In this document: positions 40,607 to 51,783 of the stretch, piece after piece | Layout: each line of letters starts with the position of its first letter | How positions within the stretch are numbered: position 1 is the stretch's first letter | Assembly (NCBI RefSeq): GCF_002979865.1 | Contig: NZ_PCPZ01000001.1 | Coordinates: forward strand, 186,001 to 250,000 | Direction of reading: 5' to 3' | From: Arthrobacter sp. MYb214 | GTDB lineage: Bacteria > Actinomycetota > Actinomycetes > Actinomycetales > Micrococcaceae | Length of the DNA: 64,000 bases | Notes under the pieces: generated by a model | What the model was told of the DNA's origin: nothing | What the model saw: the letters and a program-made list of their open reading frames with translations, nothing else | Databases searched by the model: none | Made by a program: the position numbers and the translations under genes

Positions 40607-42709
40607 ATGGCCAGCGAACCACAACAGCAAGCAAGCCCGGGAGGGGAACCGGTCTTGTCCGGCCCCGGCCAGGACAGCGAATTCCTGACCACCAACCAGG
40701 GAGCTCCCGTCAGCGATACCGACCACTCGCTGAAAGCCGGAGAGCGCGGGCCCACGTTGCTGCAGGATCACCACCTGCGCGAGAAGATCATGCATTTCGA
40801 CCACGAGCGGATTCCGGAGCGCGTGGTCCATGCCCGCGGGGCTGGCGCCCACGGCTCCTTCATCAGCTACGGCAACGCCTCCGAGCTGTGCCGGGCCGAT
40901 TTCCTCAAGCCGGGCAAGCAGACCCGGGTCTTCGTGCGGTTCTCCACCGTGGTCGGTTCCCGCGGCTCGATGGACACCGCCCGCGATACCCGCGGCTTTG
41001 CCACGAAGTTCTATACCGAAGAGGGCATTTTCGACCTGGTGGGCAACAACATCCCGGTGTTCTTCATCCAGGACGGCATCAAGTTCCCGGATCTGGTCCA
41101 TGCCGCGAAGCCGCACCCGGATACCGAGATCCCGCAGGCGCAATCGGCCCACGATACCTTCTGGGATTTCGTCTCCCTGCATACCCCTGCCCAAGCCCAC
41201 GTGATGTGGCAGATGAGCGACCGCGCGATACCCCGCTCGCTGCGCATGATGGAAGGCTTCGGCGTGCACACTTTCCGCATGGTCAACGAGGCGGGCAAAG
41301 CGTCCCTGGTGAAGTTCCATTGGAAGCCCAAGCTCGGCGTGCACTCGCTGGCCTGGGAAGAGTCCCAGCTGGCCGCCGGCGCGGATCCGGACTTCCACCG
41401 CCGCGATCTGGCCGAAGCCATTGATGCCGGCGCCTACCCCGAATGGGAACTGGGCGTGCAGATTTTCCCCGATGACGGCTCGGGGGTCTTCGAGGGCATC
41501 GACCTGCTGGATCCGACGAAATTCGTGCCAGAAGAGCTGGCCCCGGTCCAGCCGCTGGGCAAGATGGTGCTGGACCGCAACCCGGAGAACTACTTCGCGC
41601 AGACCGAGCAGGTGGCCTTCCACCCCGGGCATCTGGTTCCGGGCATCGATATCAGCGACGACCCGCTACTGCAGGCGCGGCTCTTCTCCTACCTGGACAC
41701 CCAGCTGACCCGCTTGGGCGGACCGAACTTCGCGCAGATCCCGATCAACTCGCCGAACTCGCCGGTCAACGACATGTTCCGCGACGGTTTCCACCAGCAC
41801 CGGGTGCCCAAGGGCATCGCGCCGTACAAGCCGAACTCGCTGGATGGCGGCTGTCCGTACATGTCGCAGGTGGTTTCTGGCCAGCAGCCTCCGCTGGACT
41901 TCCCGCAGCCTGTGGCCTCCGGGAAGAAGGTGCGTTCCGAGCCGGCCAGCTTCTCGGACCACTACAGCCAGGCCCGCTTGTTCTACATCAGCCTCTCGGC
42001 CGTGGAGCGCGCCCACGTGCAGCAGGCCTACTCCTTTGAGCTGGGCAAGTGCACCGATACCGCGATCCGCCAGCGGCAGGTGGAATGCCTGGCGAAGATC
42101 GATACCCAGCTGGCCGCCGGGGTGGCCCAGGCACTGGGCCTGCCGGCGCCGGCCGCAGTGCAGCTGGATGATCCGGTGGCCAGCCCCGCGCTGTCCCAGA
42201 TCGGGAAATCCTGGCCGGTGGACGGGCGCAAGGTCGGGGTGGTGTTCAACAGCGGAAACCACCAGCATGTGCCGGCAATAGCCCTGGCGCTGGCCGAACG
42301 GGGCATGTCCCCGCTGCTCGTTTCGGCCTCCGGCGGCGAGGTGGCCCCGGACCTGCCCATTGACCGCACCTACCTGACGGCGCGCTCCATCGAATTCGAT
42401 GCGCTGGTGCTCGTCGGCCCGCTGCCGCCGGCCCCGGACGCCGCGGTTGCGCTGGATGCCAAGGCCGGCGCCCTGGGCGCAGGCGGGGTTCCCATCGACC
42501 CGCGCGTGGCATTGCTGGTCGCGGAGGCCTACCGGCACAACAAGGCCATCATCACCCTGGACGGGCTCTCCGATGGCTTGCTGCAAGCGGTGGGCTTGGA
42601 GGATGACGCGCCGGGTATCGCACTGGTCGAGCTTTCGGCGGTGGCCGAAAGCGCGGAGCAGCTGCTGTCCACCCACCGCGCGTGGGAGCGTTTCCCGGTC
42701 GCCGAGTAG
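40607..42709 (+). CDS. katE: Large-subunit monofunctional catalase (HPII type)
   Basis: 700 residues, in the range of clade 2 catalases. Catalytic His75 lies in ERVVHARGAGAHG, the Asn in DLVGNNIPVFFIQD, and the haem-ligand Tyr362 in RLFSYLDTQLTRLG. The extra C-terminal flavodoxin/GATase-like domain (about 550-700) begins at GRKVGVVFNSGNH. It degrades hydrogen peroxide in the cytoplasm, and such enzymes are usually stationary-phase or general-stress induced. TAGGAGAG precedes the ATG. Neighbouring CsbD-like, flavin-fold and BrkB-type genes suggest a stress gene group. Confidence 0.96.
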   Translation: MASEPQQQASPGGEPVLSGPGQDSEFLTTNQGAPVSDTDHSLKAGERGPTLLQDHHLREKIMHFDHERIPERVVHARGAGAHGSFISYGNASELCRADFLKPGKQTRVFVRFSTVVGSRGSMDTARDTRGFATKFYTEEGIFDLVGNNIPVFFIQDGIKFPDLVHAAKPHPDTEIPQAQSAHDTFWDFVSLHTPAQAHVMWQMSDRAIPRSLRMMEGFGVHTFRMVNEAGKASLVKFHWKPKLGVHSLAWEESQLAAGADPDFHRRDLAEAIDAGAYPEWELGVQIFPDDGSGVFEGIDLLDPTKFVPEELAPVQPLGKMVLDRNPENYFAQTEQVAFHPGHLVPGIDISDDPLLQARLFSYLDTQLTRLGGPNFAQIPINSPNSPVNDMFRDGFHQHRVPKGIAPYKPNSLDGGCPYMSQVVSGQQPPLDFPQPVASGKKVRSEPASFSDHYSQARLFYISLSAVERAHVQQAYSFELGKCTDTAIRQRQVECLAKIDTQLAAGVAQALGLPAPAAVQLDDPVASPALSQIGKSWPVDGRKVGVVFNSGNHQHVPAIALALAERGMSPLLVSASGGEVAPDLPIDRTYLTARSIEFDALVLVGPLPPAPDAAVALDAKAGALGAGGVPIDPRVALLVAEAYRHNKAIITLDGLSDGLLQAVGLEDDAPGIALVELSAVAESAEQLLSTHRAWERFPVAE

Positions 42710-42829: not shown

Positions 42830-43960
42830 ATGCCTTCAGGAACCGATAGCCATGCCGGGAACGGGAACGCGGCCGAAACCGCTGCCAAGGCCCGGCACGC
42901 TCCTGGACCCGATGCCGAATCCAAACCCGATTCCCCGCCGGATATGCACTCCAGGTCATGGAAATACGCGGCCAAGCGCTCCATCAGGGAATTCTCCCGG
43001 AAGAAATGCACGGATATGGCGGCCTCGCTGACCTATTTCGCGATGCTCTCCATCTTCCCGGCCCTGCTGGCGGTAGTCTCCCTGCTCGGAGTTGCCGGCC
43101 AGGCGGAGAACATGACCCGCAACATCCTCTCGCTGATCGAGGAACTGGCCAGCAAGGAAGTGGTCGAAACCCTGCGCCAGCCCATCGAGCAGCTGGCCTC
43201 GGCCCCGTCGGCAGGCCTGGCCCTGATTGCCGGTCTGCTCGGTGCGCTATGGAGCGCCTCGGGGTATGTCGGGGCGTTCGGACGGGCCATGAACCAGATC
43301 TACGAGGTGGCCGAAGGCCGGCCGTTCTACAAGCTGCGCCCGCTGATGCTGCTGCTGACACTGGTGCTTCTTGTGGCCGTGTCCGTGCTGGGGATGCTGC
43401 TGATCGTCTCCGGTCCGCTGGCCCAGGCGCTGGGCAACGCCATGGGGCTGGGCGAGGGCGCGGTGGCGATATGGAATATCGCCAAATGGCCGGTGATCGT
43501 GCTGTGCGCGATTGTGCTGGTGGCAGTGCTCTACTATGGGGCTCCCAATGTGAAGCAACCGAAGTTCCGCTGGATCAGCCTCGGCTCGGCCATCGCGCTG
43601 CTCGTGCTGGCGGTGGCGACCGTCGGCTTCTTCTTCTACGTTTCGAACTTCGGCAACTACAACAAGACCTACGGCGCCATCGGCGGGGTCATCGTGCTGC
43701 TGCTGTGGCTGTGGATCGCCAACCTGTCGCTGCTGTTCGGCGCGGTCTTCGACGCGGAAGCCGAGCGCGGGCGCCAGCTGCAGGCGGGGATTGCCGCCGA
43801 GCGCTCGGTCCAGCTTCCGCCGCGGGATACCAAGGCCAGCATGAAGCAGGAGGAAAAAGAAGAGCAGGACATCAGCGACGGGCGGCAGCTGCGTTTCGCC
43901 AGCGAGCTGGACGCCGAAGAGCAAGCGGATCCGGATTCCAGGCGGAACCCGGAAAGCTGA
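42830..43960 (+). CDS. YihY/BrkB family inner membrane protein
   Basis: 376 residues. A polar N-terminus of about 40 residues leads to REFSRKKCTDMAASLTYFAMLSIFPALLA, the family's characteristic first membrane region. About six hydrophobic segments follow, ending with GGVIVLLLWLWIANLSLLFGAVFDAE, the conserved last helix. The C-terminal 65 residues are charged and presumably cytoplasmic. Often called ribonuclease BN by old annotation, but the family has no nuclease motif; it may be a transporter or envelope factor. It starts 120 bases after the catalase gene. Confidence 0.9.
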   Translation: MPSGTDSHAGNGNAAETAAKARHAPGPDAESKPDSPPDMHSRSWKYAAKRSIREFSRKKCTDMAASLTYFAMLSIFPALLAVVSLLGVAGQAENMTRNILSLIEELASKEVVETLRQPIEQLASAPSAGLALIAGLLGALWSASGYVGAFGRAMNQIYEVAEGRPFYKLRPLMLLLTLVLLVAVSVLGMLLIVSGPLAQALGNAMGLGEGAVAIWNIAKWPVIVLCAIVLVAVLYYGAPNVKQPKFRWISLGSAIALLVLAVATVGFFFYVSNFGNYNKTYGAIGGVIVLLLWLWIANLSLLFGAVFDAEAERGRQLQAGIAAERSVQLPPRDTKASMKQEEKEEQDISDGRQLRFASELDAEEQADPDSRRNPES

Positions 43961-44061
43961 GCAGGAGCCGAAGCTGGCCATCGCCTGACGCCCCTTGGCG
44001 CGGGCCGGCACCTCGGTAGCGTGTGAAACAACCAGATCATTCCAAGACAAAGGAGCTCATC

Positions 44062-44538
44062 ATGGCCAACGACGAGGCAAGCAAAGTCATCAGCATCATC
44101 CAGGACCTGCGGATCGCCATGGTCTCAACCCTCAGCGCTGGACGGCTGGCCAGCCGGCCCCTGACGCTGATTGAAGCCACCGACGAAGGAGAACTCTGGT
44201 TCTTCTCTGCCGCCGACGCCGGGATTGTCCAGGAAATCCGGGCCCAGGGACTGGTCAATGCCGCGTTCAGCGGATCCAAGGCGTGGGTGTCGGTCAGCGG
44301 CCACGCCGAGGTGGTGCTCGATGTCGCCAAGAAGAAGGAACTGTGGAACGCCGCGGTGGAGACCTTCGCCAGCGAAGGCCCGGAATCTGCGCAGACTGTG
44401 CTGCTGCGCGTCGATGCCGACTCCGCCGAATACTGGGAGAACCCCGGCGGGGCGGCGAGCCTGGTGGCCGGCTGGGTGAAGCAGAAGCTCACCGGAAAAC
44501 CTGCCGAGCCCGGGGACTCGAACAGCGTCGAACTCTAG
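44062..44538 (+). CDS. Pyridoxamine 5'-phosphate oxidase-fold (general stress 26-like) protein
   Basis: 158 residues from the ATG at 44062 with AAGGAG 6 bases upstream. The split-barrel flavin-binding fold is recognised by IAMVSTLSAGRLASRPLTLIEATDEGELWFFSAAD, KAWVSVSGHAEVVLD and the C-terminal YWENPGGAASLVAGWVKQKLTG. This pattern matches small proteins related to Bacillus general stress protein 26, which bind FMN/FAD or F420 and have poorly known substrates. Its placement after catalase and before CsbD fits a stress role. Confidence 0.87.
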   Translation: MANDEASKVISIIQDLRIAMVSTLSAGRLASRPLTLIEATDEGELWFFSAADAGIVQEIRAQGLVNAAFSGSKAWVSVSGHAEVVLDVAKKKELWNAAVETFASEGPESAQTVLLRVDADSAEYWENPGGAASLVAGWVKQKLTGKPAEPGDSNSVEL

Positions 44539-44654: not shown

Positions 44655-44846
44655 TTAGGACAGGTCGTCCTTGACATCCTTGGCGGCGTCCTTGACGTGT
44701 TCTCCTGCTTGCTTTGCCTTGGCGGCGGCCTGGTCCTTCACCCCTTCGGCTTGCAGGCGCTCATTATCAGTGGCATCGCCGTAGGCCTCCTTGGCCTTGC
44801 CAGATGCTTCCTGGGCCTTGTTCTGGATCTTGTCTCCAATTCCCAT
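44655..44846 (-). CDS. CsbD family stress protein
   Basis: 63 residues from the ATG at 44846 with AGGAGG about 8 bases upstream. MGIGDKIQNKAQEASGKAKEAYGDATDN is the CsbD-like motif, followed by a Lys/Ala/Glu-rich helix. These small, abundant hydrophilic proteins are induced by general stress in Bacillus (sigma-B) and in many other bacteria; molecular function is unknown. Confidence 0.92.
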   Translation of the reverse strand: MGIGDKIQNKAQEASGKAKEAYGDATDNERLQAEGVKDQAAAKAKQAGEHVKDAAKDVKDDLS

Positions 44847-45106: not shown

Positions 45107-46168
45107 ATGGACCAGTGGCCGGTGTCGTTTAGTGCAGCCGAACCAGGATCCCGCCCCCGCAACAGCGAGTCATGGTGGGGCGCCGAAGTCGCGGTGCGTG
45201 CGGCCGCCGTGCGCTGCGAGGGCAACCCGGAAGCGATGCTGCGTACGCTGGAAAGCTCGGGGGAGGAACCTCCGGTGCCAGCGGCCGGACAGACCCAGCG
45301 CCTGTGGGAACTGCTGGCCTCCGTGGCCGCCACCGACCTGGTCGCGGCCAGGACGCTGGAACCGCATTTGGATGCCGCGGGAATCCTGAGCCAGGCGGGC
45401 ATGTCGTGGCCGGGCGGCACTGCATGGGGCGTTTTCGCTGCGCAGCCGCCCAACGCCACCCTGGAAGCCGTTCGCCAGTCCGGCGGGGGATGGGAGCTGA
45501 ATGGCATCAAGCCCTGGTGCTCGTTGGCCGCGCAGCTGACGCATGCCCTGGTCACCGCCCCCACGCCCGATGGTGGCCGGCTGTTCATGGTTTCCTTGCG
45601 GCATCCGGGCGTTGAACCGGTACCGGATGCCTGGGTCAGCCGCGGCATGGCGCAGCTGCCCAGCGGCAGCGTGAACTTCACCGGCGTGCCGGCCCAACCG
45701 GTGCAAGACGCCGGCTGGTACCTGTCCCGTCCCGGGTTCGCTGTCGGGGGCGTTGGCGTCGCCGCCTGCTGGTTCGGGGCAGCGGTGGGAATCTACCGCC
45801 ATCTGCTGCGCAGCGCCCAAGCGCGCACCCCGGATCAGCTGGCCCTGGCTTGGCTCGGCGAAGCAGACCGCTTGCTGGCCGGCTGCGCCGCGCTGCTGGA
45901 ACAGGCCGCCGGGCTGGCCGATGCCGGAACGCTGGATGCCATTTCGGCCCATCGGATCCGCGGCCAGGTGGCCGGGGCCTGCGAGCGGGTGTTGCAGCTC
46001 AGCGGCCAAGCCACCGGCCCGGGCCCGCTGACCGCCGATGAGGAGCATGCGCGGCGCGCAGCAGATCTGGGCATCTATCTGCGCCAGCACCACGCGGCCC
46101 GCGACGACGCGGCGCTGGGCCAGTTGATTGCGGACCGCGCCGGAACGGAAAGTGGCAGCGCATGGTGA
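45107..46168 (+). CDS. Acyl-CoA dehydrogenase-like flavoprotein
   Basis: 353 residues from the ATG at 45107 (AGAAGGAGAG upstream). The middle shows the acyl-CoA dehydrogenase pattern: WGVFAAQPP, GWELNGIKPWCSLAAQLTHALV for the beta domain, then GVGVAACWFGAA and a helical C-terminal domain. It is shorter than typical family members (about 380-400), mainly at the N-terminus. The usual catalytic Glu region is not evident; the C-terminus reads DLGIYLRQHHAARDDAALG instead. It may oxidise a carrier- or sugar-linked substrate rather than an acyl-CoA. Its stop overlaps the next gene by 7 bases, so the following two genes are probably in one operon with it. Confidence 0.8.
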   Translation: MDQWPVSFSAAEPGSRPRNSESWWGAEVAVRAAAVRCEGNPEAMLRTLESSGEEPPVPAAGQTQRLWELLASVAATDLVAARTLEPHLDAAGILSQAGMSWPGGTAWGVFAAQPPNATLEAVRQSGGGWELNGIKPWCSLAAQLTHALVTAPTPDGGRLFMVSLRHPGVEPVPDAWVSRGMAQLPSGSVNFTGVPAQPVQDAGWYLSRPGFAVGGVGVAACWFGAAVGIYRHLLRSAQARTPDQLALAWLGEADRLLAGCAALLEQAAGLADAGTLDAISAHRIRGQVAGACERVLQLSGQATGPGPLTADEEHARRAADLGIYLRQHHAARDDAALGQLIADRAGTESGSAW

Positions 46169-47532
46169 ACTTCTCGCATCAGGACCAGGGAACATCTGCA
46201 AGCTGCTGGCAGCAGGCTGGGCTTGAGCGGATCGCCGCACTGGATCCGGAGAAGCTCTTCCACGCAATCGCATCGGTGGTTGTCCTGGCCGCCCACCCGG
46301 ATGACGAGACGCTGGGAGCCGGAGGGCTGATCCGCATGGCCCTTGGCCGGGGGATCGATGTCCACGTGATCGTCTGCAGCTTCGGGGAAGCCTCGCATCC
46401 GGATTCCACCACACACTCCCCAGCCCAGTTGGCCGCGCTGCGCCAGGCCGAGCTGGCCGAGGCCATGGACACGCTGCGCGCACAAGGACCGCGCAGCGGA
46501 ACGCTGCATCTGCACTGCTTGGGCCTGGGCGACGGGAAACTCGAAGCGCAGCAGGAGCCGATCCGCGCAGCCCTTGAGCAGCACGCCGGCGAGCGCTGCC
46601 TGATCGCCAGCACCTACCGCGGCGACGGGCACCCGGACCACGAAATCCTGGGCCTGCTCGCCGCGGACTGGGCCCTGGCGCACAATGCCTGCCATCTGGA
46701 ATTCCCCATCTGGTTCTGGCACTGGGCGCAACCGGGCCGGCAGCCCAGCTTCAGGCATTGGCGCCGGCTGGCCCTGGATGCATCCAGCGCGGATGCCAAG
46801 GCCCGCGCCCTGGAGGCCCACCGTTCCCAAACCCGGCCGCTCTCCGCCCTGCCAGGAGACGAGGTCCTCCTTAGCGAAGGCTTCCTTCAGCATTTTTCCC
46901 GCGGCGCCGAGATCTTCCGCGCCACCTGGCCTGGCCACAAGGACGCCGCGTCGGCTCCGGTGGTGTTCGAGGAGCTCTACGGGCAGCGCGAAGATCCGTG
47001 GGAGTACCGCAGCAGCCGCTATGAGCAGCGCAAGCAGCAGATCCTGCTCGCCTCCCTGCCCCGGGAGCAGTATGCGGCGGTTCTGGAGCTGGGATGCTCC
47101 ATCGGGGTGCAGAGCGCCGAGCTGGCCCGCCGCAGCACCAGCCTGCTGGCGGTGGATGCCAGCGCTACCGCGTTAGCCCAGGCCCGGCGTGCCGTGGCCG
47201 GAATGGAGCATGTCAGCTTGCTGCAGGCCACGGTGCCTCGGCAATTTCCGCAGTTGGAGCCGGGAAGCGTGCAGCTGGTAGTGCTCAGCGAGATCGGCTA
47301 TTTCCTGGCCGCCGACGAATTGGAGCAGGTGCTCGCCGCCAGTGCCGCCGCACTGGAAGCCGGCGGAGAGCTGGTGCTCTGCCATTGGCTGCATCCCATT
47401 GAAGGCTGGCCGCTGGACGGGGAGGATGTGCACCGGATGGCGGGAGACCTGGGGTGGGAGCGCATCGTGGAGCATCGCGAGGCCGATTTCCTGCTTGAAA
47501 TACTGAGCAAGCCCGCTGGTGCCCATGGGTAG
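46162..47532 (+). CDS. PIG-L deacetylase fused to a class I SAM methyltransferase
   Basis: 456 residues. The N-terminal PIG-L domain (about 35-250) has the zinc motif AHPDDE at 44-49 and HPDH at 157-160, as in N-acetylglucosaminyl deacetylases such as MshB. The C-terminal half (about 270-450) is a Rossmann methyltransferase with VLELGCSIGVQSAELA near 308-322 and an acidic residue after LLAVD. A nodulation NodS-like product or a sugar N-methyltransferase is possible by analogy, but unproven. The ATG lies inside the end of the acyl-CoA-dehydrogenase-like gene, and the next gene starts before its stop. Confidence 0.88.
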   Translation: MVNFSHQDQGTSASCWQQAGLERIAALDPEKLFHAIASVVVLAAHPDDETLGAGGLIRMALGRGIDVHVIVCSFGEASHPDSTTHSPAQLAALRQAELAEAMDTLRAQGPRSGTLHLHCLGLGDGKLEAQQEPIRAALEQHAGERCLIASTYRGDGHPDHEILGLLAADWALAHNACHLEFPIWFWHWAQPGRQPSFRHWRRLALDASSADAKARALEAHRSQTRPLSALPGDEVLLSEGFLQHFSRGAEIFRATWPGHKDAASAPVVFEELYGQREDPWEYRSSRYEQRKQQILLASLPREQYAAVLELGCSIGVQSAELARRSTSLLAVDASATALAQARRAVAGMEHVSLLQATVPRQFPQLEPGSVQLVVLSEIGYFLAADELEQVLAASAAALEAGGELVLCHWLHPIEGWPLDGEDVHRMAGDLGWERIVEHREADFLLEILSKPAGAHG

Positions 47533-48259
47533 GCAGCTGGCGGCCATGGCGGTCATCATCCCGGCCCATGACGAGGAAGAACGCCTGGGCCGTTGCCTGG
47601 ATTCGGTGCGTGCGGCCATGGACCGGTTGGCGTGTGCCCGCCCGCAGGTGCAGGTCCGGGCCATCGTGGTTGCCGATAGCTGCACCGACGGCACGGTACA
47701 GGTTGCCCAGCGGCAGATTAGCGCAGATCAGCGGATCAGCTTGCTGCAGGCCAGCTTCGGCAATGTCGGAGCCAGCCGGGCTGCCGGGGCGCGCCACGCC
47801 CTGGCCAGCTTCGGCGCGGACGCGGACCCGAGCGCCATCTGGCTGGCCAGCACCGACGCGGATACCTGCGTCGCCGAGCATTGGCTGGAGGGCTTTGCCA
47901 CCCTGCACGCCGGCGGGGCCGATGCGGTGGCCGGAACCGTGGAACCGGACCGCGGCGAACTCGATGAGCATATCTTCGCCTTATGGGAGCAGGCCTACCA
48001 GCCGATCGAGGGGCATGGCCATATCCACGGCGCGAACTTCGGAGTGTGCGCTGCTGCCTACCTGGATGTTGGAGGCTTCGAGCCCTTGGCGGCCCGGGAG
48101 GATGTGGCCTTGGTCGAGGCGCTGCGCCGCGCCGGCTACCGGGTCCAGGCCACGGCCCGCCTGCAGGCGATCACCTCGGGGCGCTTGCGCGGGCGGTTGC
48201 GCGAGGGCTTCGCGGACTATCTTGCCGCGCTGGATCACCAGATGCTCCACGCCCGGTAG
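47525..48259 (+). CDS. Family 2 glycosyltransferase
   Basis: About 244 residues from the ATG at 47525; GTG 47519 and ATG 47546 are alternatives. The GT-A fold shows AVIIPAHDEEERLGRCLDSV, VADSCTDGT, and the metal-binding WLASTDADTCV near residue 117. HGANFGVCAAAYLDVGGFEPLAAREDVAL matches the acceptor region of GT2 enzymes. No membrane segment is present. It overlaps the PIG-L/methyltransferase gene by 8 bases and is followed by a terminator, closing the three-gene unit. It presumably supplies the sugar that the neighbour deacetylates and methylates. Confidence 0.88.
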   Translation: MGRQLAAMAVIIPAHDEEERLGRCLDSVRAAMDRLACARPQVQVRAIVVADSCTDGTVQVAQRQISADQRISLLQASFGNVGASRAAGARHALASFGADADPSAIWLASTDADTCVAEHWLEGFATLHAGGADAVAGTVEPDRGELDEHIFALWEQAYQPIEGHGHIHGANFGVCAAAYLDVGGFEPLAAREDVALVEALRRAGYRVQATARLQAITSGRLRGRLREGFADYLAALDHQMLHAR

Positions 48260-48294
48260 CGCCCAAGTAAGCGGTCCCGGTCCCTGGCATAGGA

Positions 48295-48341
48295 ACAGCC
48301 CCCGGGGAATCTGCGCGGATGCGCGATTTCCCGGGGGCTGT
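48295..48341 (+). terminator. Hairpin ending the acyl-CoA dehydrogenase/PIG-L/glycosyltransferase unit
   Basis: An approximately 20-bp GC-rich stem with a small mismatch pairs 48295-48316 with 48320-48341, 35 bases after the glycosyltransferase stop. Confidence 0.7.
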
Positions 48342-48364
48342 GCCCGTTGCGGCGGTGCTTGCGG

Positions 48365-48808
48365 TTACACGCTGCTGCCGGACTCCTGCGTGGCGTACCT
48401 GTGTCCCAGCTTGCTGGCGTCGAAAGCCGGAACCGCGTGGGCGAGCGCAGTGTATTGCCAGTACTTCACACGGAATGCAGCCATTCCGCTGTGCTCGGCC
48501 TGGCCGAACAGATCCTTGATCTTGCTGCGCGGCGCGCTGGCCTGAACCACTTCCAAGACTGGAGACGGCTCGGAAATGTGCAAGAACTTCAGTTCCTCGG
48601 TCTGCGGTTCAACCATCGCGACCAGCACCGGCCGCTTGTGCACCGAGACCAGGCCCATCACATCATCGAGCGCTTCCAAAGGCTGTGTCATGACCACTGG
48701 CATTCCTTGGGTCCAGCCATAGCTGCTCAGATGCCTTCTTCCCTCGCGTGATCCCAGCAGCTCTGCTACGCGCAACGCGGTCTGGGACCTGACTAGCCTT
48801 CCTGGCAT
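48365..48808 (-). CDS. Protein of unknown function
   Basis: 147 residues with GGAGGG about 8 bases before the ATG, so the gene is probably real. I do not recognise a family. The N-terminus (GRLVRSQTALRVAELLGSREGRRHLSSYG) looks like a short helical DNA-binding-like region, followed by alternating strands (MVEPQTEELKFLHI) and a C-terminal helical part. There is no signal peptide or membrane helix. It stands alone between two convergent/tandem transcription units; the 242 bases upstream include a short AT-rich palindrome near 48934-48947. Confidence 0.65.
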   Translation of the reverse strand: MPGRLVRSQTALRVAELLGSREGRRHLSSYGWTQGMPVVMTQPLEALDDVMGLVSVHKRPVLVAMVEPQTEELKFLHISEPSPVLEVVQASAPRSKIKDLFGQAEHSGMAAFRVKYWQYTALAHAVPAFDASKLGHRYATQESGSSV

Positions 48809-49050: not shown

Positions 49051-50478
49051 TCAGTGCCGCCCAAGATCACGCAGCGCCCGGTGCGCCGCATGCCAGCCGG
49101 CCATGCCATGCACCCCGCCGCCCGGAGGGGTGGAGGAGGAGCACAGGTACAGTCCCGGCACGCCCAGCGAATAGGGATTCAGCGAGGGCGAGGGGCGGAA
49201 GAACTGCTGGGTGCCGGCCAGTGATCCGCCGCCGATATCCCCGCCGACCAGATTCGGATTCCAGGCCTGCAGCTGCGCCGGGCCGGTGACTACCCGCTGC
49301 ACGATCCGGTCCTTGAAGTCCGGCGCGAACCGCTGGATCTGCGCATCGATCAGCGCCCCGGCATCCCCGCTGTAGCCTTGGGGCACGTGGGCGTAGGACC
49401 AGATGATTTGGCAGCCGGCCGGGGCGCGCGAGGCATCGGCGCTCGAAGGCTGGACCACCATCACGAATGGGCGTTCGGGCATTGACCCGGCGGCGACCTG
49501 GCGCTCGGCCCGGGCCAGCTCGGCGGCATCGCCGATCACATGCACGGTGCCGGCCTGCGCGGTGCGCGCATCCTTCCAGGGAATCGGCCCATCGAGCAGG
49601 TAGTCCACCTTGTAGGCCGCGGTGCCATAGCGCCAGCGCTCGAACCGCCGGCGCAGTCGTGCCGGGAGCTGGTCGCCGGCGAGCTGCACCGCCTGGCGGG
49701 GCGTGGCATCCAGGAAGGTGAGGTCCGCGTCGGGAAGCTGCGCGAGGTGACTGATCTGGTGCCCGGTATGGATCTGCACCCCCAGCCCGTCGAGCACCCG
49801 CAGCAGCGCGTCGATGATGCTGCCGGTGCCGCCGTGCGCCACCGGCCAGCCCCAGGATTGGCCCAAGGCCCCGAAGAGCGCGCCGAATCCCGAGGTGAAC
49901 GGGTGGGAGAGCGGCAGCATGGAATGCGCGCTGGATCCGGCGAAGAGCGCCGCGGCCTGCCGGGTCCGGAACGCGGCGGAAGCCAGCAGCTTCGCCGGCG
50001 GCAGCGCGCGCAGCCCGAAGCGTGCCATGAGCACCGGATGCGGCGGGATGCCCAGCAGCGGGCTGGTGGCGTTGTCCAGGATCTCCTGCGGATGGCGCAC
50101 CAGCGGGTCATGCAGCAGCTGCCAGATCTTCCGGTCGGCGGGGAACTGCGCCATGGTGGCTTCCAGGTCCTGGTGCAGGAAGACCGACTCGGCGTCGTCC
50201 AGCGGGTGGGCCAGCGGATAGGTGTGGAAATCCCACTGCAGCCCATGGCCGGGCAGATCGAAATGCGCGAAGGCGCGGCTGCCATAGGCGAAGGGGTGGG
50301 CGGCAGCTCCCAGGTCCACGATGGTGCCTTCGCCCAGCGTGCTGCCGGAGGCCGCGGCACCGCCGGGACGGGCATTGCGCTCGAAGACCTGGACATCGAA
50401 TCCCTGCTCGGCCAAAACCGCCGCGGCGACCAGCCCATTGGGGCCGGCGCCAACAATGTTCGCTTTCCTGCCGGTCAT
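49051..50478 (-). CDS. Phytoene-desaturase-like FAD/NAD(P) oxidoreductase
   Basis: 475 residues. The FAD-binding motif is IVGAGPNGLVAAAVLAEQG at 8-26 with an acidic residue in VFERNARPGG. The C-terminus has GDIGGGSLAGTQQFFRPSP and LYLCSSSTPPGGGVHGMAG, both typical of the carotenoid desaturase/retinol saturase-type family (COG1233). No other carotenoid genes are near, so a pigment role is not implied. Its ATG overlaps the upstream gene's stop as ATGA, making a coupled pair. Confidence 0.9.
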   Translation of the reverse strand: MTGRKANIVGAGPNGLVAAAVLAEQGFDVQVFERNARPGGAAASGSTLGEGTIVDLGAAAHPFAYGSRAFAHFDLPGHGLQWDFHTYPLAHPLDDAESVFLHQDLEATMAQFPADRKIWQLLHDPLVRHPQEILDNATSPLLGIPPHPVLMARFGLRALPPAKLLASAAFRTRQAAALFAGSSAHSMLPLSHPFTSGFGALFGALGQSWGWPVAHGGTGSIIDALLRVLDGLGVQIHTGHQISHLAQLPDADLTFLDATPRQAVQLAGDQLPARLRRRFERWRYGTAAYKVDYLLDGPIPWKDARTAQAGTVHVIGDAAELARAERQVAAGSMPERPFVMVVQPSSADASRAPAGCQIIWSYAHVPQGYSGDAGALIDAQIQRFAPDFKDRIVQRVVTGPAQLQAWNPNLVGGDIGGGSLAGTQQFFRPSPSLNPYSLGVPGLYLCSSSTPPGGGVHGMAGWHAAHRALRDLGRH

Positions 50479-51125: not shown

Positions 51126-51740
51126 CTAGGGGGCCGGGAAAGGCCGGGCTTTGAGCAGCCGCGCCAGATGCGCCGCGTTGCGCGTGGCGATCTGCGTGGC
51201 GTTGGCCGTGACCTGCGGGGTCTGGTCCAGATCCTGGTAGTCGATGGTGTGCATGGCCTGCCCCACCCAATAGGTGGAGCCCTGGGCCGGCAGGGTGAAC
51301 CCGACATCGGCCAGGCCCTGGCCCAGATCCGCAATCACGTGGTGCGCGCCGTCCTCATTGCCCACCACGGCCACCGCGCCCACCTTGCCGAAGAGGATCG
51401 GGCGGCCCTGCTCGTCGGTCTGGGACAACTCGGCATCCAGCCGCTCCAGCACCCGCTGGGCCAGACTCGAGGGGTGGCCCAGCCAGATCGGGGTGGCCAG
51501 CACCAGGATGTCCGCGGCCAGCAGCTTCTGCCGGATCCCCGGCCACTGGTCGCCGCCTCCCATGTCCTTGAGCACTCCGGGCTTCACGTCGAAATCGGCA
51601 ATGCGCAGGATCTCGGAGTGGACCTGGTGCCCCGTGAATTCCGCCGCCACCTGCCGGGCCAGCAGATCGCTGCTGGAGGCTTTGGGCGAAGGGGAAAGGG
51701 TGCAGACCAGGATCAGTGCATTAATCGGTGTCTGGGCCAT
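51126..51740 (-). CDS. Flavodoxin-fold NAD(P)H-dependent FMN reductase
   Basis: 204 residues from the ATG at 51740, which has AAGGA 9 bases upstream. The N-terminus ALILVCTLSPSPKASSSDLLA is the phosphate-binding loop of the flavodoxin-like fold, ADILVLATPIWLGHPSSLAQRVLERLDA is the second FMN-contacting segment, and AVAVVGNEDGAHHVIADL the third. Family members reduce flavins or quinones with NAD(P)H. It belongs to a minus-strand group with the cyclodeaminase-like gene 43 bases upstream. Confidence 0.88.
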   Translation of the reverse strand: MAQTPINALILVCTLSPSPKASSSDLLARQVAAEFTGHQVHSEILRIADFDVKPGVLKDMGGGDQWPGIRQKLLAADILVLATPIWLGHPSSLAQRVLERLDAELSQTDEQGRPILFGKVGAVAVVGNEDGAHHVIADLGQGLADVGFTLPAQGSTYWVGQAMHTIDYQDLDQTPQVTANATQIATRNAAHLARLLKARPFPAP

Positions 51741-51783
51741 GGCTATCATTCCTTGTCATCGAGGGTGCTCCCGGGCAGCCGGA

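Follow-up and report, generated by a model that had tools for sequence, protein, structure and literature searches.

A conserved gene trio of Arthrobacter sp. MYb214 encoding a candidate stress-linked pathway for a modified amino-sugar compound

In rhizobia, NodC, NodB, and NodS perform GT2-type glycosyl transfer, N-deacetylation of N-acetylhexosamine (HexNAc), and N-methylation, respectively. In the MshA/MshB and BshA/BshB pairs, a cytosolic glycosyltransferase, which belongs to GT4 in MshA and BshA, is followed by a PIG-L deacetylase. We analyzed three overlapping genes of Arthrobacter sp. MYb214 located in a 64,000-nucleotide stretch of contig NZ_PCPZ01000001.1 (assembly GCF_002979865.1, positions 186,001–250,000, forward strand), hereafter the window, in the coordinates of which all positions are given. 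The genes encode a protein with the acyl-CoA dehydrogenase (ACAD) fold, a fusion of a PIG-L de-N-acetylase with an S-adenosylmethionine (SAM)-dependent methyltransferase, and a GT2 glycosyltransferase (Table 1). They constitute one functional unit. Our best explanation as a whole, to which we give an even chance, includes the view that this unit is a biosynthetic module with a patchy distribution and a tie to stress responses.

Co-occurrence of the genes was analyzed in 58 genomes, i.e., that of the strain and those of 57 relatives, with an E-value threshold of 1e-8 for the ACAD-like protein and the glycosyltransferase. Matches to the fusion (with both domains covered), to the ACAD-like protein, and to the glycosyltransferase were found in an identical set of 23 of the 58 genomes. 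Among the remaining 35, 33 had neither an ACAD nor a glycosyltransferase match at this threshold and contained at most weak partial matches to paralogues of the fusion; genome G055 had a single weak glycosyltransferase match (34%, residues 5–117). The Fisher p value for the co-occurrence of the ACAD-like gene and the fusion was 2.7e-15, kinship being ignored. The trio genes were divided across contig ends in G048; the glycosyltransferase gene was located elsewhere on the opposite strand in G039 and ahead of the ACAD-like gene in G040. The trio is accessory within the genus, since it was carried by 8 of 17 other genomes. Of 119 genomes drawn from the phylum, that of the strain included, 13 gave a match at E 1e-30.

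Named genomes were also scanned, and the best 80 of 305 relatives, all Actinobacteria, were kept. The gene order of the window was retained in 78 of these loci; the glycosyltransferase gene came first in one, and another (L081) lacked it. The first gene ended with (A/G)TGGTGA in 52 of 77 named loci, permitting an overlap with the PIG-L gene identical to the 7-nt one of the window (46162–46168). At the methyltransferase/glycosyltransferase junction, where the window has an overlap of 8 nt (47525–47532), a 4-nt overlap was found in 47 of 71 named loci, with starts chosen by rule. A chance juxtaposition of the three genes was rejected on the basis of their co-occurrence and conserved order. The original prediction had treated the genes as a unit, overlapping by 7 and 8 bases ahead of a hairpin; the coordinates and plus-strand location were verified, and the shared set of genomes, the order, and the conserved overlaps bear out the unit. 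A check of the 58 genomes and 80 named loci for the opposite pattern, in which relatives would carry the genes mostly apart, did not reveal it.

Outside this sample, 22 plasmid loci were read with profile hidden Markov models (HMMs): 20 from the 61 plasmid records with a match and 2 others. They had been found via the fusion (20) or the ACAD-like protein (2), so their counts inform on the partner genes only. All four parts (ACAD, PIG-L, methyltransferase, and glycosyltransferase) were present within the stretch in 15 of the 22 loci, belonging to Acinetobacter towneri, A. baumannii, Kitasatospora, Pandoraea, Nostoc, Deinococcus sp. NW-56, Bradyrhizobium, Paracoccus, Comamonas (two loci), Sphingomonas, Novosphingobium, Komagataeibacter, Sulfitobacter, and Sphingobium. 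The module thus spans Proteobacteria, Deinococcota, and a cyanobacterium, with the two parts of the fusion encoded separately in these groups. The loci of D. radiodurans, D. wulumuqiensis, and Roseomonas had no matching glycosyltransferase, and that of Paraburkholderia retained only the methyltransferase and the glycosyltransferase. In Cupriavidus, an annotated PIG-L gene, unmatched by the HMM used, was set apart and adjoined a catalase gene; in the Rubrobacter locus, a deacetylase of carbohydrate esterase family 4 (CE4) occupied the place of PIG-L. Carriage by viruses was rejected, since none of 8 pattern matches was a relative.

Some plasmid loci had further peculiarities. The ACAD-like protein of D. 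radiodurans (L029:2181-4517) contained an extra N-terminal region of ~420 aa, TIM-barrel-glycosidase-like by eye, for which no Pfam or PDB sequence match was found. Opposite-strand genes were inserted between operon genes in D. wulumuqiensis (TnpB, L139:6816-8168) and D. radiodurans (helicase, L029:5237-7849). A flavin reductase gene adjoined the ACAD-like gene in Gloeothece. In A. towneri (L022, L156), the operon, a catalase gene, and otsAB shared a mobilizable plasmid with tet(X) and other resistance genes.

Regarding the genomic surroundings, stress-related neighbours were searched for with queries taken from annotated plasmids, the less biased of two query sets, and 40 stretches (39 from the same relatives and 1 from the strain's own genome) served as controls. 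Among the relatives' loci, 10 of 20 had such neighbours, and among the named loci, 19 of 80, compared with 0 of 40 controls (Fisher 2.5e-6 and 3e-4, respectively, kinship ignored); the matches comprised catalase, YihY, Ku, LigD, OtsA/B, topoisomerase IB, PPK2, and a PRC/DUF2382 protein. A query set partly picked from the loci themselves gave 28/80 named loci, 13/20 relatives' loci, and 2/40 controls, both of the latter being CsbD matches. YihY was found near the module in 8 named and 3 relatives' loci, and also in Roseomonas and Sphingomonas. CsbD queries matched 4 relatives' and 4 named loci, yet also 2 controls. Dps was present in 17 named loci, 3 relatives' loci, and no controls, the query having been drawn from the named set itself. 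By eye, four 49-kb plasmid controls contained no catalase, Ku, trehalose, CsbD, or Hsp20 gene, their gene tables being incomplete. In two Comamonas plasmids, the four module genes were located between otsA and otsB. The stress gene neighbourhood noticed previously is supported. In the window, genes of a catalase, a YihY-type protein, and a pyridoxamine-phosphate-oxidase-like protein are located upstream, and across the loci compared, catalase, Ku/LigD, YihY, or trehalose genes were found close to the module at a higher rate than in the control stretches.

A published expression table lists ACICU_02432-02435, annotated as a glycosyltransferase, a SAM-dependent methyltransferase, LmbE, and an acyl-CoA dehydrogenase-related protein and marked there with one shared letter, as down 31- to 62-fold in two colistin-dependent mutants of A. 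baumannii (PMC5660220). According to the same data, otsAB was down 12- to 50-fold in these mutants, together with many other genes (PMC5660220). A similar gene set is described as flanking blsA in A. baumannii (PMC6240043). Judging by their product names and order as given in these sources, the published genes would belong to the trio family; the DNA checked was that of another A. baumannii record (L200).

Our best reading, with its chemistry inferred and its chances evenly poised, is a cytosolic stress-linked pathway making an N-methylated, oxidized amino-sugar compound. The cytosolic GT2 enzyme would load a small acceptor with HexNAc (N-acetylglucosamine being a guess); the PIG-L domain would strip the N-acetyl group from the transferred sugar, and the fused NodS-like domain would methylate the freed amine. 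The ACAD-fold flavoprotein would then oxidize the product, and the most probable form of this enzyme is a two-component flavin oxygenase. This logic would be that of NodC–NodB–NodS, serving a stress metabolite rather than a symbiotic signal. The spread of so small an operon, linked to genes of catalase, DNA end-joining, and trehalose, across soil Actinobacteria, Deinococcus, Acinetobacter, and Nostoc would imply a widespread and as yet undescribed stress compound. As anticipated in the original prediction, neither the family libraries used nor the open-licence literature searched yielded a match to a characterized pathway, and none of the three proteins reached the cut-off of any NCBIfam model.

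The deacetylase step is the best substantiated. The zinc motifs of PIG-L/LmbE proteins, AHPDDE (A44, H45, P46, D47, D48, and E49) and HxDH (D155, H157, D159, and H160), were invariant in 20 rows of one alignment (A1) and in all 27 rows of another (A6, 26 of 71 fusions and the window). The predicted fusion was confirmed by Pfam, in which PIG-L, NodS, and Methyltransf_25 (45.3 bits) were clearly recognized. In three relatives (L012/L119, L013/L120, and L128), PIG-L, the methyltransferase, and GT2 shared one open frame; all three domains were recognized by Pfam in a 770-aa PIG-L–methyltransferase–glycosyltransferase fusion, and the open frame of L128 (L128:8137-11523) had 1129 codons.

Rubrobacter-like loci had the gene order CE4 deacetylase, ACAD, methyltransferase, reductase, and GT2 in 6 of 6 cases. 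They represented five genera by handle: one was a Rubrobacter indicoceani plasmid (L131), and four of the five others belonged to its family. All six CE4 genes passed PF01522, while no PIG-L match was obtained in these 16-kb loci with three queries, and a whole plasmid record of this type contained no PIG-L, host chromosomes not being searched. In the operon tested, the CE4 protein was nearest to NodB (113 bits, under the cut-off of 240), and the methyltransferase was nearest to NodS (74.6 bits, NF041650 cut-off 300). The reductase was nearest to dioxygenase ferredoxin-NAD reductases (198.9 bits, cut-off 650), which hints at oxygenase-type chemistry. The replacement of PIG-L by an unrelated sugar deacetylase is the best, though indirect, evidence available for the N-deacetylation of an amino sugar, and for the PIG-L step we strongly infer this activity.

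The methyltransferase domain passed the NodS cut-off of Pfam (PF05401) and scored 44.1 bits with the NCBIfam equivalog model of NodS (NF041650, cut-off 300). Its nearest solved structure was PDB 4isc (profile E 1e-57), and NodS itself (3ofj) matched with E 3e-20. Because of this relation to NodS and the fusion to a deacetylase, N-methylation of the freed amine may be proposed with fair confidence.

The third protein has the GT-A fold with the D, DxD, and ED motifs of GT2 enzymes: D51, D55, D111, D113, E192, and D193 were invariant in 48 rows (A5, 47 of 65 glycosyltransferases and the window). Another alignment (A2) left out L018, where a contig ended, and L020, a short locus in which no glycosyltransferase was found. 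The predicted model of the protein was of high confidence (pLDDT, the predicted local distance difference test, 96.4), and its Foldseek matches were generic GT-A/GT2 proteins. Hydropathy revealed no membrane segments in the fusion or the glycosyltransferase, and the peak of 1.87 in the ACAD-like protein corresponded to a predicted core helix; no signal peptide was seen by eye in the trio proteins. The proteins look soluble, and for this reason a small molecule or a glycan is just as probable a substrate as the glycolipid also proposed in the original prediction. Since neither the fusion nor the glycosyltransferase has a membrane segment, GT2 may be supposed, with fair confidence, to move HexNAc onto a soluble acceptor.

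The same features bear on a second explanation, in which the target of the module is a glycan or glycolipid of the cell surface: HexNAc would be attached to an envelope polymer or lipid, deacetylated, and methylated, with the ACAD-like protein acting on the lipid part. GT2, deacetylase, and methyltransferase are frequent in envelope pathways, additional glycosyltransferases stand beside the trio in Novosphingobium and Sphingobium, and a cluster encoding an ATP-binding cassette (ABC) transporter ATPase recurs in 18 of 81 loci (the 80 named ones and the window). However, proteins without membrane segments or a signal peptide fit envelope decoration poorly, and neither a flippase nor a polymerase was among the recurrent neighbour families, of which only ten were named. 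We consider this explanation a real but lesser possibility.

The first protein had been described as acyl-CoA-dehydrogenase-like, and in its fold this description stands: the predicted model (pLDDT 93.5) has the ACAD fold, with Foldseek E values of about 1e-11. Its assignment to ordinary dehydrogenases or desaturases probably does not. Among the best Foldseek matches, the nitrososynthases DnmZ, ORF36, and KijD3 and the monooxygenases TdsC/DszC scored similarly to a steroid ACAD and ordinary ACADs. The trio-type rows were compared with proteins of the same genome, namely 7 canonical ACADs and 4 of the SfnB-like type. In the column of the catalytic glutamate (YEGT), only L, V, or I was found in 25/25 trio-type rows, in 24/24 rows of alignment A3 (from which L015, with a stop in the chosen stretch, and L019, at a contig end, were left out), and in 57/57 rows of alignment A4 (56 of 75 listed named ACADs and the window). 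The glutamate was present in 6 of the 7 canonical ACADs, and the seventh (L142) had glycine. At what we take to be the alternative base column, G214 was invariant, and no canonical row had an acid there.

At the same time, S139, invariant in 24/24 and 57/57 rows, occupied the same alignment column as the CSG-motif serine of DszC/TdsC (S163 of DszC by counting), a catalytic residue of these class D flavin monooxygenases. C138 was found in 21/24 (A3) and 57/57 (A4) rows, W176, the tryptophan before GM/GL, in 24/24 (A3) and 56/57 (A4), and an SG region was also common to the trio rows and DszC/TdsC. The trio ACADs formed one clade with a support of 100/97 in an unrooted tree. With the glutamate missing in all rows, a deep clade of its own, and some monooxygenase-type residues, the protein is unlikely to be an acyl-CoA dehydrogenase or desaturase of the ordinary kind, and a role in ordinary beta-oxidation was judged unlikely because of the missing glutamate. 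With weak to fair confidence, it may be regarded as a flavin-dependent oxygenase or oxidase with the modified sugar as its substrate. The boldest version of this reading, N-oxidation, would follow from the analogy with nitrososynthases.

A third explanation, which we hold to be unlikely, assumes that the ACAD-like protein does dehydrogenate acyl-thioester or amino-acyl substrates by means of a relocated base, the product being an N-acylated unsaturated amino-sugar conjugate. The fold is that of ACADs with high confidence, and the steroid ACAD 6wy8 ranked first among the Foldseek matches, which also included ColB1, acting on carrier-bound cysteine. The canonical-looking L142 is another protein without the YEGT glutamate. 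These points are countered by the contrast between the canonical and the trio-type rows in this column and by the invariant glycine at the alternative base column, placed as assumed above; moreover, no acyltransferase or carrier protein was found among the ten named neighbour families, no dedicated search being made. A low-molecular thiol-like antioxidant of the mycothiol/bacillithiol kind, made or recycled by the trio, is very improbable and membership in these pathways was rejected: the PIG-L domain resembles MshB and BshB and the neighbourhood is rich in oxidative-stress genes, but the scores are far under the MshB, BshB1, and BshB2 cut-offs, the glycosyltransferase is GT2 rather than GT4, and most relatives have separate PIG-L proteins (weak matches).

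Several observations weigh against the cytosolic pathway for an oxidized, N-methylated amino sugar as we prefer to read it. Foldseek fails to separate monooxygenases from true ACADs, and the absence of the glutamate, shared by L142, is in itself not proof. The unrooted tree gives three separate groups (trio, canonical, and SfnB-like), DszC and nitrososynthase sequences not being included. The methyltransferase fold of NodS is a broad one, so that the methyl group may instead be placed on O or S, and the generic GT-A matches of the glycosyltransferase named no donor. GT2 is also the least fixed partner, being unmatched in 4 of the 22 plasmid loci (L029, L134, L139, and L202) and displaced or on the opposite strand in further ones. 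In the Gloeothece locus, ACAD was the sole matched part. Genome G026 retains the ACAD-like gene without a working fusion: the former has the trio motifs KPWCSLA and YVRQHH and stays open over 447 codons in a single frame (L215:7423-8945, G026:C15), and an open reading frame of 76 codons after it has weak matches to the PIG-L start (E 3e-4) and the glycosyltransferase profile (E 4e-4); it looks like a decaying operon that has lost most of the trio. As to stress, 61 of the 80 named loci had no external stress gene in the stretch examined, and 3 of the 10 positive relatives (L110–L112) share the inherited neighbourhood of the window.

In its most far-reaching form, which we regard as speculative and rather improbable, the product would be a phylum-crossing stress metabolite of a new kind, an N-methylated, N-oxidized amino-sugar glycoside (a nitrone, hydroxylamine, or nitroso sugar) that cells produce when needed to trap radicals or to protect themselves from desiccation. 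Its attachment to trehalose or trehalose phosphate is a guess, prompted by the Comamonas operons between otsA and otsB and the co-regulation with otsAB tabulated for A. baumannii. If true, Nod-factor-like chemistry would have been reused for abiotic stress.

Table 1. Coordinates of the gene trio and neighbouring features in the window.
Feature	Position	Strand	Details
ACAD-fold flavoprotein-like protein, non-canonical, operon-specific clade	45107..46168	+	353 aa; open reading frame, Pfam, model, tree
PIG-L de-N-acetylase/SAM methyltransferase fusion	46162..47532	+	456 aa; 7-nt overlap with preceding gene
PIG-L domain, residues 40-169 of fusion	46279..46668	+	Pfam PF02585, 78.8 bits, cut-off 28.2
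NodS-like class I methyltransferase domain, about residues 276-450	46987..47511	+	PF05401 NodS, 42.6 bits, cut-off 24
GT2 glycosyltransferase	47525..48259	+	244 aa; PF00535, 56.3 bits; 8-nt overlap with preceding gene
Hairpin, 20-bp, at operon end, between convergent genes	48292..48344		fold energy
KatE-type long catalase, neighbour	40607..42709	+	Pfam Catalase, 560 bits, and Catalase_C
YihY/BrkB membrane protein, neighbour	42830..43960	+	Pfam
Pyridoxamine-phosphate-oxidase-like (PNPOx-like) protein, neighbour	44059..44538	+	Pfam Pyrid_ox_like, 132.7 bits
Small CsbD-like protein, neighbour	44655..44846	-	named by eye from sequence, no family search

In the first protein, the ACAD middle domain (Acyl-CoA_dh_M) barely passed its Pfam cut-off (33.4 bits vs. 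33.3). The hairpin after the trio, with arms at 48292–48311 and 48325–48344, had a fold energy of -46 kcal/mol (z -7.5). It has no T-run and was not listed by the terminator scan of the window, so that it is a putative terminator only. The sequence GTTT-N13-17-GGGWAT, which we take to be the stress-sigma consensus, was not found before the trio; the window contained 2 matches (12203 and 32148), with 0.72 expected. Neither tRNAs nor Rfam families (at gathering scores) were found in the window. The G+C content was 0.48–0.56 over the first 26 kb and rose to 0.65–0.69 past 42 kb, as if the two halves of the window were of different histories.

Downstream and convergent with the trio, a conserved 147-aa protein without a Pfam match at E 0.01 was encoded (48365–48808), which was present in 7 of 20 relatives' loci. 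It was followed by convergent genes of an FAD oxidoreductase, phytoene-desaturase-like by eye (49051–50478; matched in 4/20 relatives' loci), and an NADPH-dependent FMN reductase (51126–51749; 2/20).

Compared with the Nod-factor enzymes, the trio likewise combines GT2, a deacetylase, and a methyltransferase in one operon, with the methyltransferase nearest to NodS and the CE4 deacetylase of the tested Rubrobacter-type operon nearest to NodB. Unlike them, most trio operons use PIG-L instead of CE4, their scores are far under the NodB and NodS equivalog cut-offs, an ACAD-fold protein accompanies them, and the neighbourhood is one of stress rather than symbiosis. No NodA-like gene was annotated in the 20 of 22 plasmid loci that had a gene table, NodA itself not being searched for. 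The pairing of a glycosyltransferase with a PIG-L deacetylase is shared with MshA/MshB and BshA/BshB, whereas the trio has GT2, and an N-methyltransferase and a flavoprotein replace the Cys ligase, with scores under the model cut-offs. PDB 4isc, a methyltransferase whose function was unnamed in the search output, is a 164-residue chain comparable to the methyltransferase part only. The ACAD-like protein shares its fold and the absence of the YEGT glutamate with DszC/TdsC and with KijD3, DnmZ, and ORF36, and the CSG-motif serine, the W before GM/GL, and the SGS region with DszC/TdsC; in contrast to all of these, it is ~40 residues shorter, is 17–20% identical in Foldseek alignments, and forms its own clade. 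Its C-terminus reads YLRQHH, where the SfnB-like rows have the motif RT(H)xxHNP/HDP. The trio is not an artefact and is not explained by a described pathway that could be found; defining features of the named systems are absent from it, yet its parts come from known families and its logic is Nod-like.

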